Shown in pieces: positions 3-18,441 of a stretch of DNA of 24,262 nucleotides (position 1 is its first letter; each line of letters starts with the position of its first letter). The stretch covers positions 1-24,262 of IMG/VR virus record IMGVR_UViG_3300023444_000008, one strand, 5' to 3'. The notes under the pieces were generated by a model. The model saw nothing but the letters and a program-made list of their open reading frames with translations, was not told the DNA's origin and ran no database searches. The DNA is from a virus. The translations under genes and the position numbers were made by a program.

Positions 3-1955
3 GAAAAGAAACCTGGACGCCCCAACATCCACGGCCTTATAACTTCTTACATAGAGACCGCCTACGGGGATGACGCCCGTATGATGAGGGCCTATGACTT
101 CGAGTATGCCGTAAGGTCTGCTGGTGATGACATTGACAAGGTTTCCATTACTCCGTTCCCTAATTACCGTACTTGGGAGATGGTTTCCCATCACCTTTAC
201 GCAGTGGATGACGGGAAATGTACCTTCAACGCCAAGATAGTCAAGAACCTTATCGGTAATGACCCAGGGGACAACCTTATTACCCACATAAACAGCCACA
301 ATCCGAGCATGATTGCCGCCGGAGCGAACAGGCTAAGTGGCGGTGATAAAGACGATGAACTCACTACCGGGGTTGAAGAGTGCATGGCCTCCGGTGTTCC
401 CATGCTTATGGTCGGTGTGTCTGGCATCGGTAAGACTACCAGGGTTAATAATTACTGCCGTAACAACGCAGAGCAGTTGGATATTAACCTGGCTCATGTT
501 GACCGTACTACCGTAATGGGGACGCCGGTTACGGCAGACCCTCTCAGTCTACTCAACGGGGATAGCCGTGAAGTCCTGGGAGAGAAAGACCCTATTTTCG
601 GGGAACTGAGCAAGATAGCCAAAGGGAAGGATATACCTTCGGCAGTGTCGCGTTTCGCTCCAGACTTGAACATAGCGAAGAAGGCCGAGGCAGCCGCCCA
701 AAAAGGCAGGCCCCTTGTCTTGTTCTTTGACGAGGTAAACAGGGGAAACTCTACTGTATGGAGCGCCGTGTTCGAGGCCGTTTCCGACCACAGGTACGGC
801 GGTGTGGAGTTCCCGGAAGACCTGGAAGTCAAGGTAGTATGCGCGGCGAATTTTGGGGAAGCCTACCAGGATGTGAACCGGCTTGACCCTGCCTTTGCCG
901 CCCGGTTCTGTATCTTCAACCACCCGGAAATCACGGATGAAGATGTGGAGGCCATCAAGAACTACTGGCGCTCAATAGACTATGACCGCCGGATAATGGA
1001 CTTCCTTGACACCCTGTCCCCGGATGAGTTCAAGGACTTAATCAGAAGTGTCGAGAGCCGGACAATGGAGAAATCCGCTTCTTCTACCAGGGGCTTCTCG
1101 GACTTCAACAGTGTCCTCAAGACCTTTGGGAAGACTGTGATGAGTGGCCGCCTTATCGACGGTGACAAGTTCCTATCGTTCTCCGTATGGTTGGGCGTAA
1201 CGGAGGACAGGGATGACGGAAACTACAGAGCAATACTGGATGACCTCATAACCAACTTGAACCGGATTCCGGCAAATTGGGCCGCCTATAACCAGGATGA
1301 CACTATTGACTTTGCCTCCAGAACCTACACGGCAGCCGCCTTTGTACGAGAAGCAAAGCAGACCGCCGAAGAGTGGAGTAAAGCCTACTCTATGACGGAT
1401 GAGACCCAACGCCCTGACCAGGTGAAATGGAACATAGACGCCATAAACAACATCAAAGAAAGCATCCGGTATTTCAATGACCGTGTGGCCGAATTGCGTA
1501 AGCACCAAATAGTCTCGATTCTAGGCCCTGGGACTATAACGGAGAACCTCATTATCCACTACAACAACGCTACAGGGGAAGAGAGAATTGAACTGCATGA
1601 AGTCAAGACTCCCGATCTGGCCGAGAAGTGGGTAGAACAGGAGATAACCCCGGCGAACCCGAGTGACTACTCCGAGAAGGCCGCCGCTATTGCCAGGGAG
1701 TACCATGACTTCTGGAAGAACAAGAAGCCTAAACTCCACACGGAAATCCTGAAGGCTCTGTTTTCAGCAATGAAGGCCGTACACCAGCAGATGTATGACT
1801 TCATTGCCATGTATCGTTCCGATACCACGGTGGCGGCTTTCTTTCAGGCAGCCGCAAGCCCGAAGGCCGACCGTGACATTGTAGAGGGAATCCTCGGTTT
1901 AGCCTGGGATGAAGACCAGGCCAAGGCATACTACAAAAAGCATAAGAAGAAATAA
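3..1955 (+). CDS. MoxR-like AAA+ ATPase, probably tandem-domain (5' end outside window)
   Basis: The reading frame is open to the left edge, so the ATG at 81 is probably internal. A complete AAA+ module is visible: Walker A GVSGIGKTT at nt 414-440, Walker B LVLFFDEVN ending at nt 740 with its Asp-Glu at 729-734, a sensor-1 Asn at 849-851 and a candidate arginine finger in DPAFAARF (Arg at 903). A lid-like helical region around nt 1080-1250 and about 220 more mostly helical residues follow. The segment before Walker A (nt 20-300, with FPNYRTWEMVSHHL) resembles the C-terminal lid of a MoxR-type ATPase, which suggests a first AAA module beyond the edge. MoxR ATPases work with VWA-domain partners in remodelling complexes. 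Such a partner is encoded three genes downstream. The AAA identity is firm; the tandem arrangement and assembly role are inference. Confidence 0.85.
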   Translation, partial: EKKPGRPNIHGLITSYIETAYGDDARMMRAYDFEYAVRSAGDDIDKVSITPFPNYRTWEMVSHHLYAVDDGKCTFNAKIVKNLIGNDPGDNLITHINSHNPSMIAAGANRLSGGDKDDELTTGVEECMASGVPMLMVGVSGIGKTTRVNNYCRNNAEQLDINLAHVDRTTVMGTPVTADPLSLLNGDSREVLGEKDPIFGELSKIAKGKDIPSAVSRFAPDLNIAKKAEAAAQKGRPLVLFFDEVNRGNSTVWSAVFEAVSDHRYGGVEFPEDLEVKVVCAANFGEAYQDVNRLDPAFAARFCIFNHPEITDEDVEAIKNYWRSIDYDRRIMDFLDTLSPDEFKDLIRSVESRTMEKSASSTRGFSDFNSVLKTFGKTVMSGRLIDGDKFLSFSVWLGVTEDRDDGNYRAILDDLITNLNRIPANWAAYNQDDTIDFASRTYTAAAFVREAKQTAEEWSKAYSMTDETQRPDQVKWNIDAINNIKESIRYFNDRVAELRKHQIVSILGPGTITENLIIHYNNATGEERIELHEVKTPDLAEKWVEQEITPANPSDYSEKAAAIAREYHDFWKNKKPKLHTEILKALFSAMKAVHQQMYDFIAMYRSDTTVAAFFQAAASPKADRDIVEGILGLAWDEDQAKAYYKKHKKK

Positions 1956-1965
1956 GGGGTTACGG

Positions 1966-2403
1966 ATGGATGTCTACTCTATCGAAATAGAAAGACTCCT
2001 GGAAAACCTGAAGATAGAAGACTCTGGAGAAGAGTACATTTACAAGGACGGTGGACACACTGTTATTGCTGATATTGAAACGATAGAAGTCTCGGAACTC
2101 TTGAAAAGGCTCCGGGACTCAATCTATGTCAATAAATACCTATCAGCCAAGCAGGGAGTCCGGGTTTTCTTGCGGAAAATCCCGGTTCCAGGTATGCCGG
2201 TCTTCGTGAATTTGAACTTCTTGTTTCCGGTTCGGAAGATGTTCAGCACCAGGCTACAGGCATCAATCGACATGGTACAGGTTTTCAAGGATGGCAGGCC
2301 CACTACTTTCCTGTCGCTACCGGCGGCTATGGGGTTCTTGTCCAGAACTGAGTATGTGGACTCCCTGGAGGCCCTTGTGGACATGGGAGGCAAGAATGGC
2401 TAA
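1966..2403 (+). CDS. Hypothetical protein between AAA ATPase and metallopeptidase-like gene
   Basis: This protein of 145 residues belongs to no family I recognise. The start at 1966 was chosen because TAAGGGG at 1953-1959 gives a Shine-Dalgarno match seven bases before the ATG; an upstream in-frame start would run back into the ATPase gene. The N-terminal half is acidic and probably helical (IEIERLLENLKIEDSGEEY). The middle is hydrophobic and beta-like (VRVFLRKIPVPGMPVFVNLNF). I see no signal peptide, transmembrane segment or catalytic motif. The next gene starts inside its stop region (ATG at 2396), so the two are probably translationally coupled. Its conserved-looking position inside the ATPase/metallopeptidase/VWA module suggests an adaptor or accessory subunit, which is inference from context only. 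Confidence 0.7.
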   Translation: MDVYSIEIERLLENLKIEDSGEEYIYKDGGHTVIADIETIEVSELLKRLRDSIYVNKYLSAKQGVRVFLRKIPVPGMPVFVNLNFLFPVRKMFSTRLQASIDMVQVFKDGRPTTFLSLPAAMGFLSRTEYVDSLEALVDMGGKNG

Positions 2404-3769
2404 GTACAACACCATAAGGCAACTGGCCCAGGCCGCCTTCGCAAAGATCACTACCATGAAGGACTTGCCTAAAGACGATCCTCTACCGCCGCCTTTTCTA
2501 TCTTTGACACTTGACAGTGATCCTATCTTCAATATAGGGCTGGATGTTCATGTGGAAAAGGGGGTTTACCGTTTCTCTAGGGCCATGTACTCCAATGAGT
2601 ATCAGTCGGTGGCGGTGAAAGAACGGCTGGAGAGAGGCAAGAAAGGCCAGGCCCTCGCAGACACTCTCCTGAAGGACGCCAACATAATGGCTATCTACAG
2701 TGAGTTGGAGGCGGCGGCCATAAAGCATGTGGTGGCAAAGATTCCAGACTACTACAAGGTCTTTAACTTCCTTCTGAGGGACTACAATAACGCGAATTGC
2801 GACACTCTGGCCGTGGGGTGGCACAAGACAAAGAAGCGATTCATTCTCTACATCAATCGAACTTTCGTGGTGAGTGCCGCCATTCAAAACCTTATTGGTG
2901 GCCGTGGGATAGGCCCCATCAAACGATTAAGGAAAGTCGGTGGTGGCTACCCTGCTGACCTGGCTTTGATTCTCGATGTGGCCGGTAACTTCCTCCATGA
3001 AGTCGGTCACGTTATTTTTCGGCATGTAGGTAAGAACGTGCAGGAATACAAAGACCTGGATCATGGGTTTGTAAACACCTACGCCGATACCGTGGTGGAC
3101 GCCAATGTCAGAGCCAGGATCGACTACTTGATCGAAAGCGGGATGAAATACGGGATTCCCAAAGACCCCCAGGAAGCCCTGAAGAAAGTCAGCATGTTCT
3201 CTTTACCGAGTTATGGTATGGCTGACATCATATCCTACAAGGTCAACGGCGCAACCAGATCCGATGTTTATGACATGATCTACCTCCACAGGAAGCCCTC
3301 GGGAGTGGACATGAGGCAGATGTCGAAAGTGAGACAGGACGATTTCGATGACCTATTGCCGGATGTGGCTTATCCAGGAATCCTCTTGGTGAATCCGTTC
3401 TCTCTGGTTCTCCAGGGAGTCCCGCAAATGGTGATATTCAAGATTATGAAGTACTTCCTGTCCTTCTTCGACAAGGAACAGATCAAGCCCGGCAAGAAGA
3501 AGATACCGCCCCCGAAGTTGGGAGACCCGCCGCCCCCGCCGCCGCAACCGGGACAGGGAGCGCCGCCGGGAGAGAAATCGGTGGAAATAGACCTGAAAGT
3601 CGGTGATTATGTGGTCTACGCCGAGACCGGGACAGCCGCGACAGTGACAGCCGTTCATGACGATGGAACCTATGACATCGAGGATCACGGCATATCCCCG
3701 CAAGAGTTATATGATGAAATTCTGAAGGACAAAGGGATTGACCCGAAGACAGGAAAGGAACTGAAATGA
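2396..3769 (+). CDS. HExxH metallopeptidase-like protein (DUF2201 N-terminal type)
   Basis: This protein of 457 residues carries a zinc-metallopeptidase signature, LHEVGHVIFRH, with His201-Glu202-x-x-His205 as likely metal ligands and catalytic Glu. Asp231 or Asp235 in YADTVVDANVRARID is a candidate third ligand. The arrangement recalls the putative metallopeptidase domain that in bacterial DUF2201 proteins sits N-terminal to a VWA-like domain. Here the VWA part is encoded by the next gene, overlapping by ATGA. Residues after about 360 form a Lys/Pro-rich linker containing a run of prolines, followed by a small beta-rich C-terminal domain (VGDYVVYAETGTAATVTAV). The start at 2396 has GGGAGG just upstream and overlaps the previous stop. 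No target is known, and the HExxH fold could be structural rather than proteolytic. Confidence 0.7.
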   Translation: MAKYNTIRQLAQAAFAKITTMKDLPKDDPLPPPFLSLTLDSDPIFNIGLDVHVEKGVYRFSRAMYSNEYQSVAVKERLERGKKGQALADTLLKDANIMAIYSELEAAAIKHVVAKIPDYYKVFNFLLRDYNNANCDTLAVGWHKTKKRFILYINRTFVVSAAIQNLIGGRGIGPIKRLRKVGGGYPADLALILDVAGNFLHEVGHVIFRHVGKNVQEYKDLDHGFVNTYADTVVDANVRARIDYLIESGMKYGIPKDPQEALKKVSMFSLPSYGMADIISYKVNGATRSDVYDMIYLHRKPSGVDMRQMSKVRQDDFDDLLPDVAYPGILLVNPFSLVLQGVPQMVIFKIMKYFLSFFDKEQIKPGKKKIPPPKLGDPPPPPPQPGQGAPPGEKSVEIDLKVGDYVVYAETGTAATVTAVHDDGTYDIEDHGISPQELYDEILKDKGIDPKTGKELK

Positions 3770-5397
3770 CCTATAGACCTCCTGCGGGTTCACCCGTAAA
3801 GAACGTGGTAAAGTCCGACCTGAAGGTTATCTCTCCGGGAGGCCGGGTAAACACCCCATCAGACCCGAACTCTGCTATGGAGCCGGACATGGGTACGGAG
3901 AACGTATTCGATCCTAGAATACCGCCTCAACAGCAGCCGCCCCAACAGCCACAGCAGCCGCCTCAACAGAAGCCATCTCCTGCGACCGGCAGTTCCGGCG
4001 GCAAGGGAGAGCGAGACAAAGACAAGGAGAACCAGAACCAGGCCGGTGACTCTCCGTCCGGTGATCCCCAGGGAAGTTCCGATCCAGGGGACAAAGCAGA
4101 CGATCCTTCCGGCGGTTCCTCCGCTATGGGAGACAAGGACAGTGCCGGGAAGCCGGGAAAGGACTCTCAGGATGCCTCCCAGGGGGCCGGGAAGACCTCT
4201 CCAGGGGATCAAACTGGTCAGGGTGCGCCCTTACCCCCTCAGAAGGGTAAAACGCCTCCAGGGGCCTCTACGGGGCCAAAAACAGGAGACCCTACGAAGG
4301 GCCAAAAGCAAGGGGGCCAGGCAGGAGACCAGGGCGGCGGCCCTAAAACCAAGGGAGACATGCAGGATGAGTTGAATGACCTCATGGGGGCCTTGGAAGA
4401 GTTGGAAGGGAACCGGCGAGACTCGAAGTCCGGCAATCTCAAGAGCAATGATTCAGAAGGTTCTGACGGCGATTCCGGGGCCGATCCAGTAGCAGACGCT
4501 CCGGCAGATTCCGGTCTGGATGCCACTATCTCTGAGGCCGTGAACGCCGCCGCCGATCAACTGAACCAGCAGGCAGCAGACCCAAATTCTCCGGGAACTG
4601 GTGACAGTGGGGACAAAGGGAAACCCTCTGCTTCTGACGTTCTGAGTTCTATGGGGGCCGGTAACATTCCCGATGTGAGCAACTATGTCCGGGGACTGAA
4701 GAAGACTAAACTTGCAGACGATTGGAGGGGCCTGCTCAAGAAACTACTCCAAAAGGCCGCCGGGATAAAAGAGGAACATTCTGCCATCACTCCAAGCAGG
4801 AGGATAGAAGGGCAATTTGGCCGGGAGATAGAGAAACCGGCTATCAGAAGGGTTATTATCTCTGTGGACTGCTCTGCCTCGATGGGGCCGGAGCAATTTC
4901 GCCAAGTGTTCGCAGAGTTGAAGAAATTAGGCTCTCACAGTATCATCAAGAAGCACATGAAGAAATCCGAGATGTATTCTTTCATGTGGGGTTCTTTCGA
5001 TGACGGACTCAATGACCCGGAGCGAAGGCGCGAAATAGCCAAAGACAATCTGGAGAGATTGCCGGGCAAGGGGTTCAGTGAGAATATCGTTTCCCAAATG
5101 CTTACGAAGAAGTTAAAAGGCATACGGGCGAGAGAGGGAACGGACTTTATCGGCTTCCATGCTGCCATGCTGAAAGTAGCGCCAAAGCCTGACATGGTTA
5201 TGGTGATGACGGACGGCGAGTTTTGGAATGAGACCGTATCGGGCGAAGAAGCAGCCGTTAAAAGGCTTCTGGCCCGGCTTTCAAAGAGTGGTCGGCTTAT
5301 TTGGGTGCTTGTCGGCTCCCGCTACAAGCCAGACATAAGGAGGCTAGACCCTCGGTTTCAGTCTCACACTATCGAGATTCGGGGTTCAGCAAAATAG
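3766..5397 (+). CDS. VWA-domain protein with long disordered N-terminus
   Basis: This protein of 543 residues has two parts. Residues 1 to about 300 are low-complexity: a Pro/Gln run near residues 50-67, then Gly/Asp/Ser/Lys-rich sequence, almost certainly disordered. From about residue 310 there is a folded domain. It opens with a helical segment and a SRR motif like the end of the DUF2201 metallopeptidase domain, followed by a VWA fold. The metal-ion-dependent adhesion site is complete: Asp368-x-Ser370-x-Ser372 in VDCSASMG, Thr459 in REGTDF and Asp483 in MTDGEFW. The start overlaps the previous stop as ATGA. VWA proteins of this kind are partners of MoxR ATPases; in the archaeal virus ATV a MoxR protein and a VWA protein are a known pair. 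A role in virion assembly here is inference. Confidence 0.85.
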   Translation: MTYRPPAGSPVKNVVKSDLKVISPGGRVNTPSDPNSAMEPDMGTENVFDPRIPPQQQPPQQPQQPPQQKPSPATGSSGGKGERDKDKENQNQAGDSPSGDPQGSSDPGDKADDPSGGSSAMGDKDSAGKPGKDSQDASQGAGKTSPGDQTGQGAPLPPQKGKTPPGASTGPKTGDPTKGQKQGGQAGDQGGGPKTKGDMQDELNDLMGALEELEGNRRDSKSGNLKSNDSEGSDGDSGADPVADAPADSGLDATISEAVNAAADQLNQQAADPNSPGTGDSGDKGKPSASDVLSSMGAGNIPDVSNYVRGLKKTKLADDWRGLLKKLLQKAAGIKEEHSAITPSRRIEGQFGREIEKPAIRRVIISVDCSASMGPEQFRQVFAELKKLGSHSIIKKHMKKSEMYSFMWGSFDDGLNDPERRREIAKDNLERLPGKGFSENIVSQMLTKKLKGIRAREGTDFIGFHAAMLKVAPKPDMVMVMTDGEFWNETVSGEEAAVKRLLARLSKSGRLIWVLVGSRYKPDIRRLDPRFQSHTIEIRGSAK

Positions 5398-9623: not shown

Positions 9624-11204
9624 ATGTCTGTAAAAAGTATCCTGGAGCAACTTCGAGCCAAGCAGGAGGATACCGGCGTTGCTATCGTCTTAGGAGAGAG
9701 CAACAACGGGGACAATACCCCGGAACCGGAGGACGCCATCCTGGACGCCGAATTGACTCCCGACATTCTGAAGGCTATGGAAGAGGCTGACGCCGCACCG
9801 CCTTCGGAAGAAGAACTCATGGAGATCATGGATGACTTCGACATCGGGCTTTATGACCTCATAGACCTGGCGAGTCTAGCCTATGCTCCTATGAGTGAAG
9901 AAGAGTTCGATGAGGCCCTTGCTAATTGGGGCGGGGAAGCCGACTTGAGCGAAGAGGAAGAGGATGACGCCGATGACGCCGGTGACGTCGAGACTCAGAC
10001 CGAGGACTCCGATGAGACCCTGGATGAAGCGAAGCGTGTAGGCCGTGGCGGTCGAAAGAAGAAGAAGAAGGACGCCCCAAAGAAAGACGATAAGAAGGCC
10101 AAGGCCGGTTCGGGGGCCAAAGCAGCCAAAGCAGCCAAGGCCGCCAAGAAGTCCGGCGGCGGCAAGTCCGGCGGCGGCAAGTCCGGCGGCGGTGGAGGCG
10201 GCGGGGGCGCGATGTTCAAGCCCGAGTACCGTGGAACCCACTACCGCGACAAGACCGGGAAAGCGCATCCCCGTAGAGACCCGAAGACCGGCGAAAAGGC
10301 GAAGACGGGATTCGACAAGTACTACAACCGGGACGCCTTCAACCAGGTTTTCGCTACCAACCTGTTCGCCAGGAAAGCAAAGCCCCCGAAGGAAATGCGA
10401 ACTCCCAGGGGTAACAGGATCAACCTGAAACACTACACCCCTTCCGGTTTTTGGGGATGTGTGAGGAAGATCATCAAGGGCGGCGTCATCAAGAAAGTGA
10501 AGAGGCCCGACAAGTACGGCACAGGCAAGGGAGGCAAGGTTTTTGCGGCCAGGGCCTTGTGTGCCATGATCGCATCTATGGGGCCGGGCAAGGTCAAGAG
10601 GCCCAAACCCATGATGAAGAAGTGGCGTGACACTTTCGCCAAGTGGCGTCAGAGCAAGTACAAAGGCCCCCATCCGTACAAAGGCTCCAAAGAGATGAAG
10701 AAGACCTGGCCCGGATTGAAGAAGGGCGGTTACACCGGAACCAAGTTCAAGGGACATTCCCCGTCCTATCAGGCCGCCGGAACGGGTGAACCGAACCCGG
10801 CTGACATCCTCATCGAAGGTCTGGCTCAGTACTTTCCCGAGGCCGAAGAGATCGAGAAGATTCTCGGAGTCATCGACATCTACATGGAAGGCCGCCTGTC
10901 GGAAGACGAGTTCGACGCCTACCTGGAGAGGAAGATGGAAGCGGCGGGTATCGAAGATGAAGAGACCGCCGAAGTCCTGGAGGCCATCAAGAGCCTTTCT
11001 TCCGAGATGGCTTTGATCGAGGACGGCGTGGAACTGGAACTCGAATCGGGACAAGCCCCCGATGATGAGGAAGACCCGGAGGATGAAGAGGAAGACCTGG
11101 AGGAAGAGGGAGTCACCGAAAAGACCAAGGAAGACCCCGAAGACTCCGAGGATGAAGACTCCGAGGAAGAAGAAGACGATATGGAGGATGAAGAGGAAGA
11201 CTGA
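9624..11204 (+). CDS. Charge-segregated structural protein, histone-H1-like linker, unknown function
   Basis: This protein of 526 residues matches no family I know. It has four zones. Residues 1-135 are very acidic. Residues 136-197 are a Lys/Ala/Gly linker with KKKKK, an AKAAKAAKAAKK run like histone H1 tails, and SGGGK repeats ending in poly-Gly. Residues 198 to about 385 are a strongly basic core rich in Lys, Arg, Trp and Tyr. Residues 390-526 start helical (ILGVIDIYMEGRLSEDEFDAYL) and end in an almost purely Asp/Glu tail. LDE135-A at the acidic-to-basic border fits the prohead protease rule. Codon use resembles that of the capsid gene, which suggests high expression. It lies between neck genes. 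An internal, DNA-contacting head protein with an acidic propeptide is a reasonable hypothesis; a neck or decoration protein is the alternative. Confidence 0.8.
   Translation: MSVKSILEQLRAKQEDTGVAIVLGESNNGDNTPEPEDAILDAELTPDILKAMEEADAAPPSEEELMEIMDDFDIGLYDLIDLASLAYAPMSEEEFDEALANWGGEADLSEEEEDDADDAGDVETQTEDSDETLDEAKRVGRGGRKKKKKDAPKKDDKKAKAGSGAKAAKAAKAAKKSGGGKSGGGKSGGGGGGGGAMFKPEYRGTHYRDKTGKAHPRRDPKTGEKAKTGFDKYYNRDAFNQVFATNLFARKAKPPKEMRTPRGNRINLKHYTPSGFWGCVRKIIKGGVIKKVKRPDKYGTGKGGKVFAARALCAMIASMGPGKVKRPKPMMKKWRDTFAKWRQSKYKGPHPYKGSKEMKKTWPGLKKGGYTGTKFKGHSPSYQAAGTGEPNPADILIEGLAQYFPEAEEIEKILGVIDIYMEGRLSEDEFDAYLERKMEAAGIEDEETAEVLEAIKSLSSEMALIEDGVELELESGQAPDDEEDPEDEEEDLEEEGVTEKTKEDPEDSEDEDSEEEEDDMEDEEED
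10149..10193 (+). repeat. 15-base tandem repeat encoding SGGGK
   Basis: Three copies of AAGTCCGGCGGCGGC (last base changed in the third) lie at 10149-10163, 10164-10178 and 10179-10193, directly before a poly-glycine codon run. They encode the flexible linker of the charge-segregated protein. The unit keeps the reading frame. Confidence 0.9.
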
Positions 11205-12697: not shown

Positions 12698-14185
12698 ATG
12701 CCGCAACCTAGATCAGCCGGTGTATATCATCGGGAGATAGATCAGTCTCTCTTTGTGCCCGCTGTTTCCTCCACAATCTTCGCATGTGTCGGAGGGGCGC
12801 ACAAAGGGGAACTGAATACCGTTATCGAGGTTTCTTCGCAATCGGAGTATGTGAAGAAATTGGGTATTCCCACTACTCCGATGGGCCGGGCCATGTTCCA
12901 GTATTTGCGGTTTGGCCGTCAGGGTCTCTGCGTTCGGGTAGCCAACGGGGAAGCCGATGCAGTGGCACAAATAAACGATTCCGTGGGAGCCAAGACTTTC
13001 ACCATCTACGGGAAGCACCCCGGAGAGGGCTACAACGGTCTGGTTATCTGGATTCTGGAATCTCTCATCTCTTCCTCGAAGTTCAAACTCGTAGTGGAGG
13101 AAGACGGATTCCCTGTCGAAACCTGGGATGACCTGGACAAATCGAGCCTGGGAGCGACTCTCAATGATGAACTCACCGGCTCCGAGTACATCCGGGCGGT
13201 AAATGACACCGGGAACACGAATCCTCCGGCGGTGAATCAGTCCAAGACTCTGGCCGGTGGAAATTCCGGTATTACCGGGCTTCAGGACGCTGATTACATA
13301 GGAACCAAGACGGGAACCACCGTGACCGGCCTCCAGTGTTACCATAACCCGGAAGACCTCGATGTGGACATCCTGGCAATACCGGGGAACTCCAGTTCTG
13401 CCGTTATCGTCGCAATGCTGACACTGGCCGAGAACAGGGAGAACACCTACGCCATCATCGACCCTCCCTACGGTCTCGATGTGGATGAAGTGATCGACTT
13501 CCACAACGGAGCCGGGGCTTTCGCCGGGCAACATGCCGCCTTCAACACGCACCGGGCTTGCTGCGATTGGCCCTGGCACAAGGTCTATGACGCCTACCTG
13601 GAACAAGAGGTATGGGCCGCCCCTTCCGGCTTCACCGCCGGAATCATCGCTTACAATGACTATGTGGCGAATCCCTGGATTGCCGCCGCCGGTCTGGAGA
13701 GAGGCCGGGTGATAAACAGCCTGGCAATCGAGTATTCCCCGACCAGGGCCGAAAGGGATAAACTCAATGCATACAACAACATCAATCCCTATGTAAACTT
13801 CAAGACGGACGGCATCGTCCGATGGGGCCAGAATACCCTTTACCGGAAGTCCTCGGCACTGGCAAGCGAGAACGTGCGCCGGATGCTTTTCTACGCCGAG
13901 AAGCAACTCGGAGGGGTTTTGCGTTACCTGAATTTCGAGCCGAATGACCCGCGAACCTGGAAAGAACTCAAGCAACTCGGAAGTTCGGTTCTCGATCCGA
14001 TCCAGAGTGGCCGGGGTCTCTACGATTACCGCCTCATCTGCGATGACACTACGACTACCGATGACTTGATCGACCAGGAGACCGTTCTGGCGAAAATACT
14101 GTTGAAGCCGACCCGGATAGCCAAGGTTATCCAGTTGGATTGGACGATACTGCGTACCGGCGCGAAATTTGAAGAGTACATCTAA
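12698..14185 (+). CDS. Tail sheath protein (gp18/FI-like)
   Basis: This protein of 495 residues has typical sheath ends. The N-terminus is SAGVYHREIDQSLFVPAVSS followed by FACVGGAHKGELNTVIEVSS and a QYLRFGRQGLCVRVA segment, as in contractile sheath proteins. The C-terminal core domain includes LAIEYSPTRAERDKLNAYNN, then VRRMLFYAEKQLGGVLRYLN with LKQLGSSVLDPIQSGRGLYD, and ends in the arm strand VIQLDWTILRTGAKFEEYI. Sheath subunits encircle the tube and contract to drive it through the host envelope. AAGGAG at 12685-12690 is an ideal binding site seven bases before the ATG. C/G-ending codons dominate, consistent with high expression. It forms the usual pair with the tube gene 11 bases downstream. 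Confidence 0.92.
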   Translation: MPQPRSAGVYHREIDQSLFVPAVSSTIFACVGGAHKGELNTVIEVSSQSEYVKKLGIPTTPMGRAMFQYLRFGRQGLCVRVANGEADAVAQINDSVGAKTFTIYGKHPGEGYNGLVIWILESLISSSKFKLVVEEDGFPVETWDDLDKSSLGATLNDELTGSEYIRAVNDTGNTNPPAVNQSKTLAGGNSGITGLQDADYIGTKTGTTVTGLQCYHNPEDLDVDILAIPGNSSSAVIVAMLTLAENRENTYAIIDPPYGLDVDEVIDFHNGAGAFAGQHAAFNTHRACCDWPWHKVYDAYLEQEVWAAPSGFTAGIIAYNDYVANPWIAAAGLERGRVINSLAIEYSPTRAERDKLNAYNNINPYVNFKTDGIVRWGQNTLYRKSSALASENVRRMLFYAEKQLGGVLRYLNFEPNDPRTWKELKQLGSSVLDPIQSGRGLYDYRLICDDTTTTDDLIDQETVLAKILLKPTRIAKVIQLDWTILRTGAKFEEYI

Positions 14186-14196
14186 GGAGAAATCAA

Positions 14197-14724
14197 ATGG
14201 CTAACGCTTTTGCAGACGCTCTAGCGCAAGAGTTCGGGGGGTTCGAGCCGCAAAGACAGCATACATGGCTCATTTCCTTCCATTCTCTTCCGGGCGCTAA
14301 AGTCTTGGAACTGGCCCTGAGAACCGGCTTTCTTCCTTCCGAGAACAATGAAGAAATCGAGATACCCTACATGAATAGCAGGGTGTACATTGCCGGTAAA
14401 TACGCAGTTGACGCCGGTTCCCTCACATTCAATGACTATGTGGACTCCAATGTGGCCGGGATACTGGCAAACTGGAGAAAACTGGTCTACGATGTCAGGA
14501 CGGGACAGTTGGGGTATGCCCGAAGTTACAAGAAAACGGCCACCATCACCCTCTACGGCCCGGAACTCATCGTCGAGAGAACCTGGTCAATCAAGGGAAT
14601 CTGGCCGCAAGCCGTGAACTACGGGGCCATCGACTATTCAAGTTCGGATGTGGTACAGGTCGAATGTACGTTCAGGTACGACAAGGCCATTCCTGACTTC
14701 GCAGACACCGCCGTAGGCATCTAA
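14197..14724 (+). CDS. Tail tube protein (gp19-like)
   Basis: This protein of 175 residues has the length and features of the gp19 tube family. The N-terminus is FADALAQEFGGFEPQRQHTW, followed by a beta-rich body with PYMNSRVYIAGKYAVDAGSL, then LTFNDYVDSNVAGILANWRK and GYARSYKKTATITLYGPELI. Near the end, TWSIKGIWPQAVNYGAIDYS leads to the strand VVQVECTFRYDKA. Hexameric rings of this protein stack to make the DNA conduit inside the sheath. AAGGAG overlaps the sheath stop codon, with eight bases to the ATG, so the pair is co-expressed. Nothing is unusual. Confidence 0.92.
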   Translation: MANAFADALAQEFGGFEPQRQHTWLISFHSLPGAKVLELALRTGFLPSENNEEIEIPYMNSRVYIAGKYAVDAGSLTFNDYVDSNVAGILANWRKLVYDVRTGQLGYARSYKKTATITLYGPELIVERTWSIKGIWPQAVNYGAIDYSSSDVVQVECTFRYDKAIPDFADTAVGI

Positions 14725-14738
14725 AAACAGGAGTAACC

Positions 14739-15512
14739 ATGAAAACACACACTGTTATGTTACCCTCAAAGGGACTTCTGAACAATATCGAACCGTCAAT
14801 CATAATCCGGGAGATGTCCGTAGAGGTAGAGAAGGAAATCCTCTCCAATCATACCCCAACGGAGAAGATCATCAATATAGTCCAATGCTGCCTGGAGACT
14901 CCCGGAATCAATGTTGCCGACTTGCCGTTGGTGGACATAACCTATCTGCTTTTCGAGATCAGAGCCTTACTGGAGCCGGAGTACTTTTATCCTGTCCAGT
15001 GCGACTTCTGTGGCTTTTCTTTCAGGCATCCTGTGACGATACCGGGAGACTTCGAGATTATGTACGCCCCGGATGACCTTGCAGAGCCTATGCCTCTGGA
15101 ACTTCCTTGTGGAGATACCCTCGGGCTTGTCTTCCTTCGAGGCAGTGACCAGTTGGAAATCGAGAGAAGGGCAAAAGTCCTGCTGCAACAAAGGAGCAAG
15201 GGGTTCCGGCCCGGTAAGGGTCAGGACATGTCCGGGGTCTCGGTTCGCAATATCCAGCACACCGCCCGAATGGTGAAGCAGATACACACTATCAACGGCG
15301 AGGAAAAGGGACAGGCCGAGAAACAGGCTTATGTGAGCAAGATGCTCATGCGAGACTCAAACGCTATCAAGGACTTCTTCGATAGCGAATCGTTCGGAAT
15401 GGACACCGAGGTCTTGGTGACATGTCCTTCCTGCTCTCAGGAAGACTTTCACATTATCCAGATGAGGCCCGAGTTTTTTCGTCCAGGTCGGCGGGGAAGA
15501 GGAAGCGAGTAA
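14739..15512 (+). CDS. Tail-assembly chaperone, zinc-ribbon, T4_baseplate (gp26)-like; short form
   Basis: This protein of 257 residues begins MLPSKGLL..., then IIIREMSVEVEKEIL, the opening seen in the T4-type baseplate family PF12322. Four cysteines in two pairs, Cys88/Cys91 (CDFC) and Cys229/Cys232 (CPSC), can form one zinc ribbon. It sits between tube and tape measure, the place of the G-type tail chaperone in long-tailed phages. Its last codons overlap an open +1 frame that continues to 15693. AGGAG at 14729-14733 precedes the start by five bases. Function as chaperone rests on position and on the frameshift; T4 gp26 itself is described as a baseplate hub component, so hub assembly is the alternative. 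Confidence 0.75.
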   Translation: MKTHTVMLPSKGLLNNIEPSIIIREMSVEVEKEILSNHTPTEKIINIVQCCLETPGINVADLPLVDITYLLFEIRALLEPEYFYPVQCDFCGFSFRHPVTIPGDFEIMYAPDDLAEPMPLELPCGDTLGLVFLRGSDQLEIERRAKVLLQQRSKGFRPGKGQDMSGVSVRNIQHTARMVKQIHTINGEEKGQAEKQAYVSKMLMRDSNAIKDFFDSESFGMDTEVLVTCPSCSQEDFHIIQMRPEFFRPGRRGRGSE

Positions 15513-15693
15513 GCAGTTATCGGACTTGCGAAAAGCACAGTTCTACTTGTCTTATTGGGCTAACATCCCTCCCTCCTGTACTAGCCAGATGAACCGAAAG
15601 GAACTGAACGGCTATGTTCAACTCTTGAATGAACAAAAGGAGAGGGAGAAGCGCGAACTAGACCGTGCCAGGAATCGAATGAAGAGAAGGTAA
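14739..15693 (+). CDS. Frameshifted long form of tail chaperone (GT-like), +1 shift near 15474-15480
   Basis: Reading in the +1 frame from 15466 gives 70 uninterrupted codons after TTTTTTC (15481-15690), stopping at TAA 15691-15693, three bases before the tape measure ATG. The translated sequence looks genuine: SKQLSDLRKAQFYLSYWANI, then MNRKELNGYVQLLNEQKERE and a basic end (MKRR). It has no ATG or GTG at its beginning; the first ATG falls mid-way. The overlap allowed for a shift runs from the +1-frame TGA at 15463 to the 0-frame TAA at 15510. A Phe tRNA on TTT (15477-15479) can slide forward to TTC (15478-15480). The fusion (14739-15479 plus 15481-15693) would be 317 residues. A -2 slip on the same run or at GGGGA (15493-15497) reaches the same frame. 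Confidence 0.7.
15474..15480 (+). other. Candidate programmed frameshift site TTTTTTC
   Basis: In the chaperone frame the bases read GAG TTT TTT CGT. Sliding the second Phe tRNA by +1 lets it pair with TTC, its better match, and places the ribosome in the open downstream frame. The run is the longest homopolymer in the permitted overlap of 15466-15509. Direction (+1 or -2) cannot be told from sequence. Confidence 0.55.
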
Positions 15694-15696
15694 ACA

Positions 15697-18441
15697 ATGG
15701 CAGACTACACGCAAAAGGCTATCAATTTCAACTTCAGCATGAATGATGCCGAGATGAGCAAGGGAGTAGATAAACTCGAATCCCAATGGAACAGCATGGA
15801 GAAGTCTGTCGGTAAAGCAGAAGACGGAATAGACAAAGTAGGCAAGACGATAAGGCAGACCGCCTCTTCCGGTGGTAAAGCCATACAGAAAACAGGGGCT
15901 GCTGTCGCTGGAGCCGCCGTCACGACAAACAAGGCAGTCCATAAACTAGGGAAAACGGGGACGGCAGTTGCCGCCAAGGTAGAGAGTATAGGGGATGACG
16001 CCTCATCTTCCTTTGACTCTGCAACGGAGGCAGTCGCCGCCTACGGAAGAGAACTTGACAAAGTGGAGGACGGTCTTGAGAAGACGGGCCAGGCCGCCAC
16101 AGTAGCCGGTAGGGGGATGGCTCTTGCCTTCGCTTCTGCCGTCGAAAGTATCCGGCAGACTAACATGAACCTCCGGGACATGGCGCAGCAAACCGGGGCT
16201 GTAGAGGCTGCCGAAAGTCTTCACACAAATCTACTTCAAGTAAACAGGACTCTAGGCTGGACAAAAGACCAGTTAGCAGCATTCCGGCGGGAAGTGACTC
16301 AGATACCTCAACCTTTGGTCGGGGCTATCGGGGTTACGGAGGTCGGTGAGGCAATAGAGGGCCTGGTAAATGCCGGGGTAAGGGCCAGGGAAGCCCTTCA
16401 AGCCTATGTTCCTGCCGTGGCTCTTATGGCGAGGGCTACCGGGACATCCGTTGACCAGATGGCCCAGGATGTCTACAGGTACAACAGCCAGTTTGGTCTC
16501 TCGATAGACCAGATTACCCGTATGCAGGGGACTATCCACAATCTAGCCAGGGAGAACGCCGTATCGTTTGAAGACATGCGTAGCAGCCTGTCAAGTTTCG
16601 CCAATGAGTTCGAGGTTGCTTTCAGAGGCATGTCAACGGAGGCCAGAGAAAGGGTGGTGACTTCATTTGCCGCTATGAGGGCCGCCTTTGCAGAGAACTG
16701 GTCAGACATGGCCCCTGTCATGGAGATGGCAGCCAAGGCTATGGTGGACATTACCTCGGAAGAGATGCAGAAAATGGTAGCCGCCTCCGGTATGGCCGCC
16801 CAGGACATCCAGCAACGGCTCCGAGAGGGCCGGATAGATGAGGTCATGAGGGCTATCATGCAGAGGGCCGGAACCTATGCAAACCAGGGGACTCAGGCCC
16901 TAAATGCGTGGGCCGAGACTACTGGAATTTCTTCTGCCGCCCTTTCCGCTATGTCGCGTAACCAGCAGAGCATAACCGGACGATTGGACAGATTCACCGC
17001 CGGGACGTACAGTGCCGCCGATGGGATGTCTCATTTCTCCGGTGTGGTTCGTAACTCTACCATCTGGTTCGACCAGTTGAAGACCAGAATTTCCTCTCTT
17101 GCTGCCAGGGATATACCGGGCCTTGGGACCAGTGTGGCCGATGTGGTGGCTGAGATGTCTGAAATAAACTGGATTGCGATGTGGGCCGGGTACACGGTTA
17201 TTAAGGGGCTTGCAACTTCGCTTTGGGGCCTTGTTGGGGCTATGGCCGGGGCCGGTGGCGCAATAGGGGCCATTGGTACGGCTATAATGGGCCTGGGGGC
17301 CAAGATAGGCGCGGTGGCTACCCTCATGTTAGGCCCTTGGGGTCTCATCATTGCCGCTATTGCCGCCGTGGTGGGAGGGGTGATATACCTTCTCCACAAG
17401 ACCGGGCAACTAGGGAAAGTTTGGGACGCCCTGAAGAACGCGATAATGTTTGCCCTCGAACCAATAATTGACACCGCGAAAGAACTATGGCAGACGATAA
17501 CTGACGCCTTCAGTTCCGGTGCGGAGGGCGGCATGGAGTGGATGAAGATAGGGAGGGCCCTCGGGAGTGTCTTTAGTTTCCTGTTCAAAATTGCCGGGTA
17601 TGCCTTGAGAGTTATGTTTCTCCGTCTTGCCCTTGCTCTGAAGATACTGAAACCTGTAATCAAGTTGCTTATCGGAGTAGGTAAACTGCTCTGGAAAGTA
17701 ATAGGCCCGTCGATAAACTGGATTGCCACCCTATTCACGGAGCCAAGGAAAGCCATAGAGCAGTTGATTTTGGGCCTAAATTCTATGGGCCTGTATCTGG
17801 AATCAATCGGGACTAAAATCGGAGAGTTTCTTCTTGATCCTCTCGGGGGTATCCAGGCAGCCTGGGAAGCCTTGTTTCCGTTCCTACAGGGTTTGATTTC
17901 AGGCTTTGTGGAGTGGGCAAACGCCGCTTTAGTGGGCTTCCTGGAAATGCTTGGATTGCAGAACGCCGAGCAAGTAATATCTGGAGTGTGGCAGCAGATT
18001 TACGCTCTGGTAACGGCTCCCATCGAGACCATGAAGAAACTGATAAATGAGAATATCATAGGCTCTCTGAACTCGATCATTACCTATGAACTGCCGCTTA
18101 TAGGCTCCCTGCAATCCGTGACCGGAGTTGGAACAATCCCGTTGCTGGCAGAGGGGGCCTACATAGATGAGCCGACATTGGCAATTATCGGTGAGGCCGG
18201 GCCAGAGTTTGTCTTACCGGAGGACAAACTGCCGGAGCCGACGATACAGCCGATCATGACTGTCAATACCGGGGGTGACTCTCCGGGGGGCGGCACTACT
18301 TCAGTGGTTGGAGTGGAGCGCCGGTTGGACGCCGTGGTAGCCCTACTCAGGCAGCAAATACAGATGGGCCAGAGAGTGAGCCGGAGTCCCCGGCCTGACC
18401 CGCTTCTGAATAGAATACTGACTTTTGGCGGGGAGTCCTAA
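15697..18441 (+). CDS. Tail tape measure protein
   Basis: This protein of 914 residues is the longest in the window and follows the chaperone pair. The N-terminal part is helical and Lys/Ala/Thr-rich. Residues about 110-450 are helical with MAQQTGAVEAAESLHTNL-type segments seen in phage minor tail proteins. Residues about 486-570 are hydrophobic, with Gly/Ala-rich stretches that could insert into a membrane (GPWGLIIAAIAAVVGGVIYL). Near the end is AEGAYIDEPTLAIIGEAGPE followed by FVLPE, the widespread end motif of tape measure proteins. Tape measures set tail length at about 0.15 nm per residue, which would suggest roughly 137 nm here. No peptidase or lysozyme motif was seen. AGAGAAGG lies before the start. 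Confidence 0.92.
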   Translation: MADYTQKAINFNFSMNDAEMSKGVDKLESQWNSMEKSVGKAEDGIDKVGKTIRQTASSGGKAIQKTGAAVAGAAVTTNKAVHKLGKTGTAVAAKVESIGDDASSSFDSATEAVAAYGRELDKVEDGLEKTGQAATVAGRGMALAFASAVESIRQTNMNLRDMAQQTGAVEAAESLHTNLLQVNRTLGWTKDQLAAFRREVTQIPQPLVGAIGVTEVGEAIEGLVNAGVRAREALQAYVPAVALMARATGTSVDQMAQDVYRYNSQFGLSIDQITRMQGTIHNLARENAVSFEDMRSSLSSFANEFEVAFRGMSTEARERVVTSFAAMRAAFAENWSDMAPVMEMAAKAMVDITSEEMQKMVAASGMAAQDIQQRLREGRIDEVMRAIMQRAGTYANQGTQALNAWAETTGISSAALSAMSRNQQSITGRLDRFTAGTYSAADGMSHFSGVVRNSTIWFDQLKTRISSLAARDIPGLGTSVADVVAEMSEINWIAMWAGYTVIKGLATSLWGLVGAMAGAGGAIGAIGTAIMGLGAKIGAVATLMLGPWGLIIAAIAAVVGGVIYLLHKTGQLGKVWDALKNAIMFALEPIIDTAKELWQTITDAFSSGAEGGMEWMKIGRALGSVFSFLFKIAGYALRVMFLRLALALKILKPVIKLLIGVGKLLWKVIGPSINWIATLFTEPRKAIEQLILGLNSMGLYLESIGTKIGEFLLDPLGGIQAAWEALFPFLQGLISGFVEWANAALVGFLEMLGLQNAEQVISGVWQQIYALVTAPIETMKKLINENIIGSLNSIITYELPLIGSLQSVTGVGTIPLLAEGAYIDEPTLAIIGEAGPEFVLPEDKLPEPTIQPIMTVNTGGDSPGGGTTSVVGVERRLDAVVALLRQQIQMGQRVSRSPRPDPLLNRILTFGGES

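Follow-up and report, generated by a model that had tools for sequence, protein, structure and literature searches.

Tail assembly chaperones (TACs) with short and long forms produced by -1, -2 or +1 frameshifting are already known (PMC5009743). In the lambda gpG/gpGT, P2 E/E+E' and Mu gp41/42-type pairs, a short and a long chaperone are encoded upstream of the tape measure gene, and the shift occurs near the end of the first open reading frame. The locus described here is likened to these pairs by its layout; the comparison beyond layout covered the fold, where the best match, a modest one, is the chaperone of phage HK97. However, lambda and P2 shift by -1 and Mu by -2, whereas the phase in the present locus is +1. 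Frameshifting in tail chaperones, T4-like phages included, has already been published, and the general idea is therefore not new.

In phage T4, gp26 matches Pfam family PF12322 over its whole length, and gp51 consists of PF12322 followed by a C-terminal extension of about 48 residues. Such a pair of proteins corresponds to the short and long forms of a tail assembly chaperone. The present locus shares with T4 the protein family, the logic of gene position, and the residues EFF near the end of gp26. In T4, however, the two forms come from separate genes, whereas a single gene would give both forms here. Vladimirov et al. 2022 reportedly describe several groups of T4-like phages in which the chaperone is frameshifted, and T4 itself as having two distinct genes. 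As cited in PMC12846349, the work of Vladimirov, Gautam and Davidson 2022 concerns -1 poly-T signals in T4-like TACs, in contrast to the +1 phase found here; this paper, which identified the chaperones of T4-like phages, appears in the reference lists of both PMC10885494 and PMC12846349.

A tail frameshift in the haloarchaeal myovirus HSTV-2 has been called very likely +1 (PMC5009743), and by this description the present locus resembles it in having a +1 shift in a myovirus tail chaperone. Outside of phages, the influenza PA-X site UCC_UUU_CGU was established by sequencing as +1 (PMC3498833). Our literature searches found no report of tail chaperones that shift at UUU_C, and no description of the UUU_CGU +1 class reported below or of its likeness to PA-X. 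The widespread and conserved +1 class appears to be new, although Vladimirov et al. 2022 may cover it.

Layout of the chaperone locus

The stretch of DNA analysed here (the window) is a 24,262-base IMG/VR virus contig from an uncultured phage. Genes neighbouring the chaperone are T4-like and include those for a gp23-type capsid, a Peptidase_S77 prohead protease, a gp15-type sheath stabiliser, the sheath, the tube, the tape measure and a gp25-type wedge. The chaperone gene and the open frame that follows it are placed between the tail tube and tape measure genes, as are G/GT-type pairs (Table 1). Judging from the sequence comparisons described below, we consider it highly probable that this T4-like, contractile-tailed phage locus makes a longer chaperone by a +1 shift at a conserved site before the tape measure gene.

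The first-pass annotation had placed the chaperone stop and the tape measure start where Table 1 gives them, and both positions proved correct. It had also described a second frame that opens after TGA 15463-15465 and ends at 15693. We could verify this frame, which is open over 15466-15690 and has its stop codon at 15691-15693. As it had stated, this frame lacks a start codon at its beginning: there is no ATG or GTG nearby, and the two TTG codons present are not accompanied by Shine-Dalgarno-like sequences. The frame is +1 (equal to -2) relative to the chaperone frame, and it fills a gap of 184 nt; the operon is tightly packed and has few gaps of such length. The -1 frame closes at most 26 codons past the chaperone stop, and the locus differs in this from the canonical -1 tail chaperone frameshift, which has a heptamer and an extension in the -1 frame.

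Table 1. Tail genes and frameshift features of the window (window coordinates)
Feature	Position	Strand	Basis and remarks
Tail sheath protein (gp18-like)	12698..14185	+	phrog_23, E 7e-76
Tail tube protein (gp19-like)	14197..14724	+	phrog_4542, E 2.5e-17
Tail assembly chaperone, short form (TAC-N, T4 gp26-like, G-like)	14739..15512	+	257 aa; PF12322, phrog_150, AF2 model
Putative long form TAC-NC (GT-like), ...RPEFF/VQVGG...	14739..15693	+	317 aa; translation with +1 shift; same fusion in relatives
Open frame, +1 relative to chaperone	15466..15693	+	Leave-window-out profile; BLASTP to extension of relative L071
Candidate slip site TTT TTT CGT C	15474..15483	+	GAR-TTY-TTT-CGT-C kept across divergent loci
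C-terminal extension (TAC-C, T-like)	15481 to 15690	+	70 aa; predicted helical hairpin
Tape measure protein, presumed chaperone client	15697..18441	+	914 aa; phrog_58 tail length tape measure, E 9e-21

The product of the chaperone ORF matches PF12322 (T4_baseplate) at E 3.5e-7 and with 30.6 bits, compared to a cut-off of 24.5, over profile positions 3-218 of 219, and its relatives score 62-89 bits against the same profile. It also matches phrog_150 (baseplate hub, E 2.7e-11) and carries two CxxC motifs that resemble a zinc ribbon. These matches place it in the T4 gp26/gp51 family (PF12322). An AlphaFold (AF2) model of the chaperone (pLDDT 88, pTM 0.84) is similar to other phage baseplate hub proteins. 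The top PDB match of this model in VIA-align is the HK97 tail assembly chaperone 2ob9 (93/104 residues, rmsd 3.9), whose Z of 4.9 (next row 3.1) falls under the value of 8 below which homology is not proven. Foldseek found no significant match to the model in the PDB, and a chaperone profile run against the sequences of solved structures returned nothing meaningful. The predicted fold therefore points modestly toward a tail assembly chaperone.

Several other ORFs lie within the structural operon. Those in 81-5397, all upstream of the prohead protease, form a MoxR/VWA-like trio. The first (81-1955) matches AAA+ ATPases weakly and has a Walker-A-like motif, the second (2291-3769) contains HEVGH, which resembles a zinc-peptidase motif, and the third (3766-5397) contains DCSAS, which resembles a VWA motif. 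Between neck-region genes, an ORF at 9624-11204 encodes a 526-residue acidic, Gly/Lys/Ser-rich product of low complexity that has no Pfam match. Bacillus phage SP-15, a relative described below, has no such trio before its capsid gene, and its major capsid gene (13480-15997) is annotated as two joined pieces around a putative endonuclease gene.

The extension frame and its relatives

The chance of 75 open codons arising from composition alone is about 0.02, which is weak evidence by itself. However, when a profile of the extension region is built from the other loci without the window, the window frame (E 7e-5) is the single window ORF that it hits below E 1. The same profile also recovers extensions from the -1-shifting phages. 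By BLASTP, the window extension aligns with that of relative L071 (38% over 55 aa, E 2.7e-9). Because of these two results, the filling of the operon gap, and an in-frame TTT_CGT that is unique among the window ORFs counted as genes, the extension frame is far beyond what chance would be expected to give. In the closest pairs of loci (L012/L038, L038/L040, and L002/L004), the extension frame has a pN/pS of 0.28-0.34, compared to values greater than 1 in the other two frames, indicating that the frame is under purifying selection in these pairs; the values for more distant pairs are saturated and little informative.

The AF2 model of the extension (pLDDT 84) predicts helices at residues 5-27 and 39-69 that form a helical hairpin. 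Comparison with the extensions of the -1 class gives E 9e-7 to 0.02 by hmmsearch and E 2.9e-6 (prob 88) by hhalign. The -1-class extensions match the end of T4 gp51 (E 2.7e-5, prob 74), whereas direct comparison of the window extension with gp51 is weak (prob 4). A tblastn search with the window extension found nothing convincing in GenBank phages, and searches of PHROGs and Pfam with it gave no significant match. Homology and selection show that the hidden frame (15466-15693) encodes a genuine, conserved domain.

A single-sequence search of IMG/VR with the window chaperone found no close relatives, but an alignment-based search succeeded. Using tblastn, we found Listeria phage LIS04, Streptococcus phage GXN1 and SP-15. 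In LIS04 and SP-15, the annotated chaperone and tape measure genes are separated by about 220-230 bases that are empty or hold only a small hypothetical ORF, and in GXN1 nothing is annotated after the chaperone in the stretch examined. The +1/-2 frame is open through the post-chaperone stretch in all three, and their extension peptides are alike. Profile-type searches of IMG/VR, together with one MAG contig, raised the homologous set to 25 loci. The extension is in the +1/-2 frame in every one of these (25/25), never in the -1 frame, and reaches 43-89 codons past the chaperone stop.

As a frame-blind test, IMG/VR was scanned for the DNA pattern CCNGARTTYTTTCGTCC, which yielded 51 distinct sites. 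Nineteen are inside genes that match the chaperone profile, and all of these (19/19) are followed by a +1 extension of 47-105 aa. Twelve of the 19 are new loci, bringing the total to 37 (25 by homology and 12 by DNA motif alone), and in most of the new loci a long ORF starts only a few bases from where the extension ends. The arrangement is common to 36 related virus or phage sequences in addition to the window phage, and the 37 loci include the isolate phages SP-15, LIS04, GXN1, LuckySocke and Mel-JY01.

The first-pass annotation had suggested comparing this interval among relatives, and in both the 25 homologous and the 12 motif-found loci the downstream frame is conserved. In no member of the +1 class are the two parts encoded by a single unshifted gene (the shift is kept in 37/37 loci), and no independent start of the downstream frame is conserved. 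The earlier proposal that a hidden frameshift product completes a G/GT-type chaperone pair is in this way supported by relatives, from which we infer the slip itself. Spontaneous +1 sites within genes are hard to spot, and annotated relatives such as SP-15, LIS04, GXN1 and others have no joined long-chaperone gene in public records. That one DNA pattern finds such loci should be useful for these phages.

Two members of the set deserve separate mention. On contig IMGVR_UViG_3300021399_000137 (L013/L108) the extension stops early (47 aa) where that of a close relative, L036, continues; either an indel in this contig or damage to this copy is probably responsible. L036 is found on an uncultured Erysipelotrichaceae MAG contig (CACYRE010000001.1). 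The presence of a phage of this group in a Bacillota MAG, or its binning with one, hints at which hosts the clade infects.

Candidate slip site and direction of the shift

Near its end the chaperone frame reads GAG TTT TTT CGT CCA. We propose that most ribosomes would continue to the stop codon and yield the short form, while a minority would slip by +1 with tRNA-Phe on TTT (15477-15479) and CGT waiting in the A site. The tRNA-Phe would re-pair on TTC (15478-15480) and reading would resume at GTC (15481-15483). F247 would be the final residue common to both forms, and the 70 codons of the extension would complete a long form whose reading frame stops shortly ahead of the tape measure gene. If the pair works as gpG/gpGT does in lambda, the tape measure protein may be covered by many short and few long chaperones, and the extension may recruit tail tube subunits. 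The sequences show the two frames, the homology of both parts elsewhere, the conservation of the site and the selection on the extension, whereas we infer that the slip occurs, its +1 rather than -2 direction, its rate and its role in assembly.

The consensus of the site is GAR-TTY-TTT-CGT-C, of which GAR-TTY-TTT is common to 19 loci. The first Phe codon of EFF is TTT or TTC, whereas the second is TTT in 19/19 loci, compared to 56% of Phe codons overall. Similarly, the Arg codon after EFF is CGT in 14/15 cases against a background in which CGT makes up 17% and AGA 43% of Arg codons. Although these loci are related and are not independent draws, amino-acid constraint alone is insufficient to account for the codon choice. 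Among the window ORFs counted as genes, TTT_CGT occurs in frame exactly once, at the candidate slip site. Sequences of the form UUU_Y are +1-prone in bacteria, and by its sequence the site is of the UUU_C type, in which UUU in the P site is followed by C (or U), the A-site codon is slow to be read and a +1 product would be made.

The first-pass annotation had noted that TTTTTTC (15474-15480) allows either a +1 or a -2 slip. Both are possible in the window, and the comparison among loci favours +1. Re-pairing of the P-site tRNA-Phe at +1 is possible in 23/25 loci (the next base is C in 19 and T in 4), whereas at -2 it is possible in 17/25; for L025, L034 and L049 the slip codon position is our choice of the best TTT. 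Under a -2 slip, tRNA-Phe on the second TTT would re-pair with the TTT that lies two bases upstream in the T-run to give ...EFFFVQ..., and phage Mu uses -2 for the same purpose (PMC5009743). LIS04 (TTT_A) and L053 (TTT_G), the two exceptions to cognate +1 re-pairing, fit -2 better. However, eight of the 25 loci are unable to re-pair at -2 (five have TTC_TTT, and the others AAC, TGG or CTG before TTT), the base after TTT that matters only for +1 is C or T in all but two, and the strong preference for CGT after TTT also counts against -2. We therefore regard a -2 slip as unlikely and favour the +1 direction. Transcriptional slippage on the T-run, by which some messages would be one U short, is far less likely than a -2 slip. 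The window has a run of six Ts, but runs of three to six are short for slippage by RNA polymerase, and the run is broken in 8/25 loci (TTC_TTT and others).

Two further explanations require no slip by the ribosome. The downstream frame might be an independent small gene that has a start codon, similar to the cyanophage ORFs annotated as 'baseplate hub assembly catalyst'. Small CDSs are annotated at this place in some phages, ATG or TAATG precedes the small ORF in S-SCSM1 and Cygsa01, and T4 has genes 26 and 51. Yet neither a start codon nor a ribosome site is conserved across the 37 loci (seven have none in the first stretch), the window offers only its TTG codons, and most extensions overlap the chaperone frame in a phase that is fixed relative to it. 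We consider a separate gene very improbable, if marginally less so than transcriptional slippage. An error of sequencing or assembly that split one gene could be imagined for a single metagenomic contig with a homopolymer. This explanation has a negligible probability and is excluded because all 37 loci, isolate phages among them, keep the identical split at the same codons.

Slips at GAG, or at codons after CGT, were considered and rejected, as in most loci the tRNA would be mismatched at the first base of its new codon.

Over the 25 loci we found neither a downstream RNA structure (mean z -0.1) nor a consistent Shine-Dalgarno-like stimulator, and the rate of the +1 shift may therefore be low. 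The missing stimulator fits with tail chaperone and influenza shifts, which apparently work without one (PMC5009743). The influenza A PA-X site has the same P-site and A-site codons, UUU_CGU, shifts by +1, the direction favoured here, and has no evident stimulator (PMC3498833, PMC5009743). In contrast, it is read by eukaryotic ribosomes in an unrelated gene and has a Ser codon before UUU where the window has Phe. The likeness is one of convergence and not of homology. With at least 37 natural bacterial-virus sites sharing the core UUU_CGU, there is now material for learning how the A-site codon and the codons before it act, which the work on PA-X had not settled (PMC3498833).

Homologous genes of the -1 class

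In RaK2, PA5oct, XacN1, S-CAM9, C48C1, Bakedbeans and LR756511 the extension is in the -1 frame and the site is T_TTT_TTY. This -1 shifting in the same gene is seen in Kyanoviridae and giant relatives. TAC-N and the extension are both homologous to those of the window, and the shift falls at the same two Phe codons. However, the window class has TTY_TTT_C and the +1 phase rather than T_TTT_TTY and the -1 phase. A tree of the chaperone needs a minimum of two changes of direction. Grouping the -1 class into one clade is not rejected either (p-AU 0.33), and the direction has accordingly changed at least once or twice. Homologous genes that shift by -1 or +1 at the same two codons constitute a natural experiment on the change of direction.

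It is reasonably likely, though held with less assurance than our reading of the window locus, that these phages represent a large unrecognised class of contractile-tailed phages with a conserved +1 signal, UUY_UUU_CGU_C, in a T4-type chaperone. This signal would be decoded in a PA-X-like manner by convergence, and the -1/+1 switch would be made by register alone with the fused product unchanged.

Two other phages show variations at this position. T4 gp26 (L021) ends with AAA GAG TTC TTT GAG TTA CTA TAA, where the EFF codons are kept and no extension frame follows; these codons are possibly a relic of an ancestral shift. In S-SCSM1 (L033, 2185-2374) TTTTTTC is kept and the extension, unlike that of S-CAM9, is in the +1 phase with its own ATG, reflecting either a separate gene or a sequence error.
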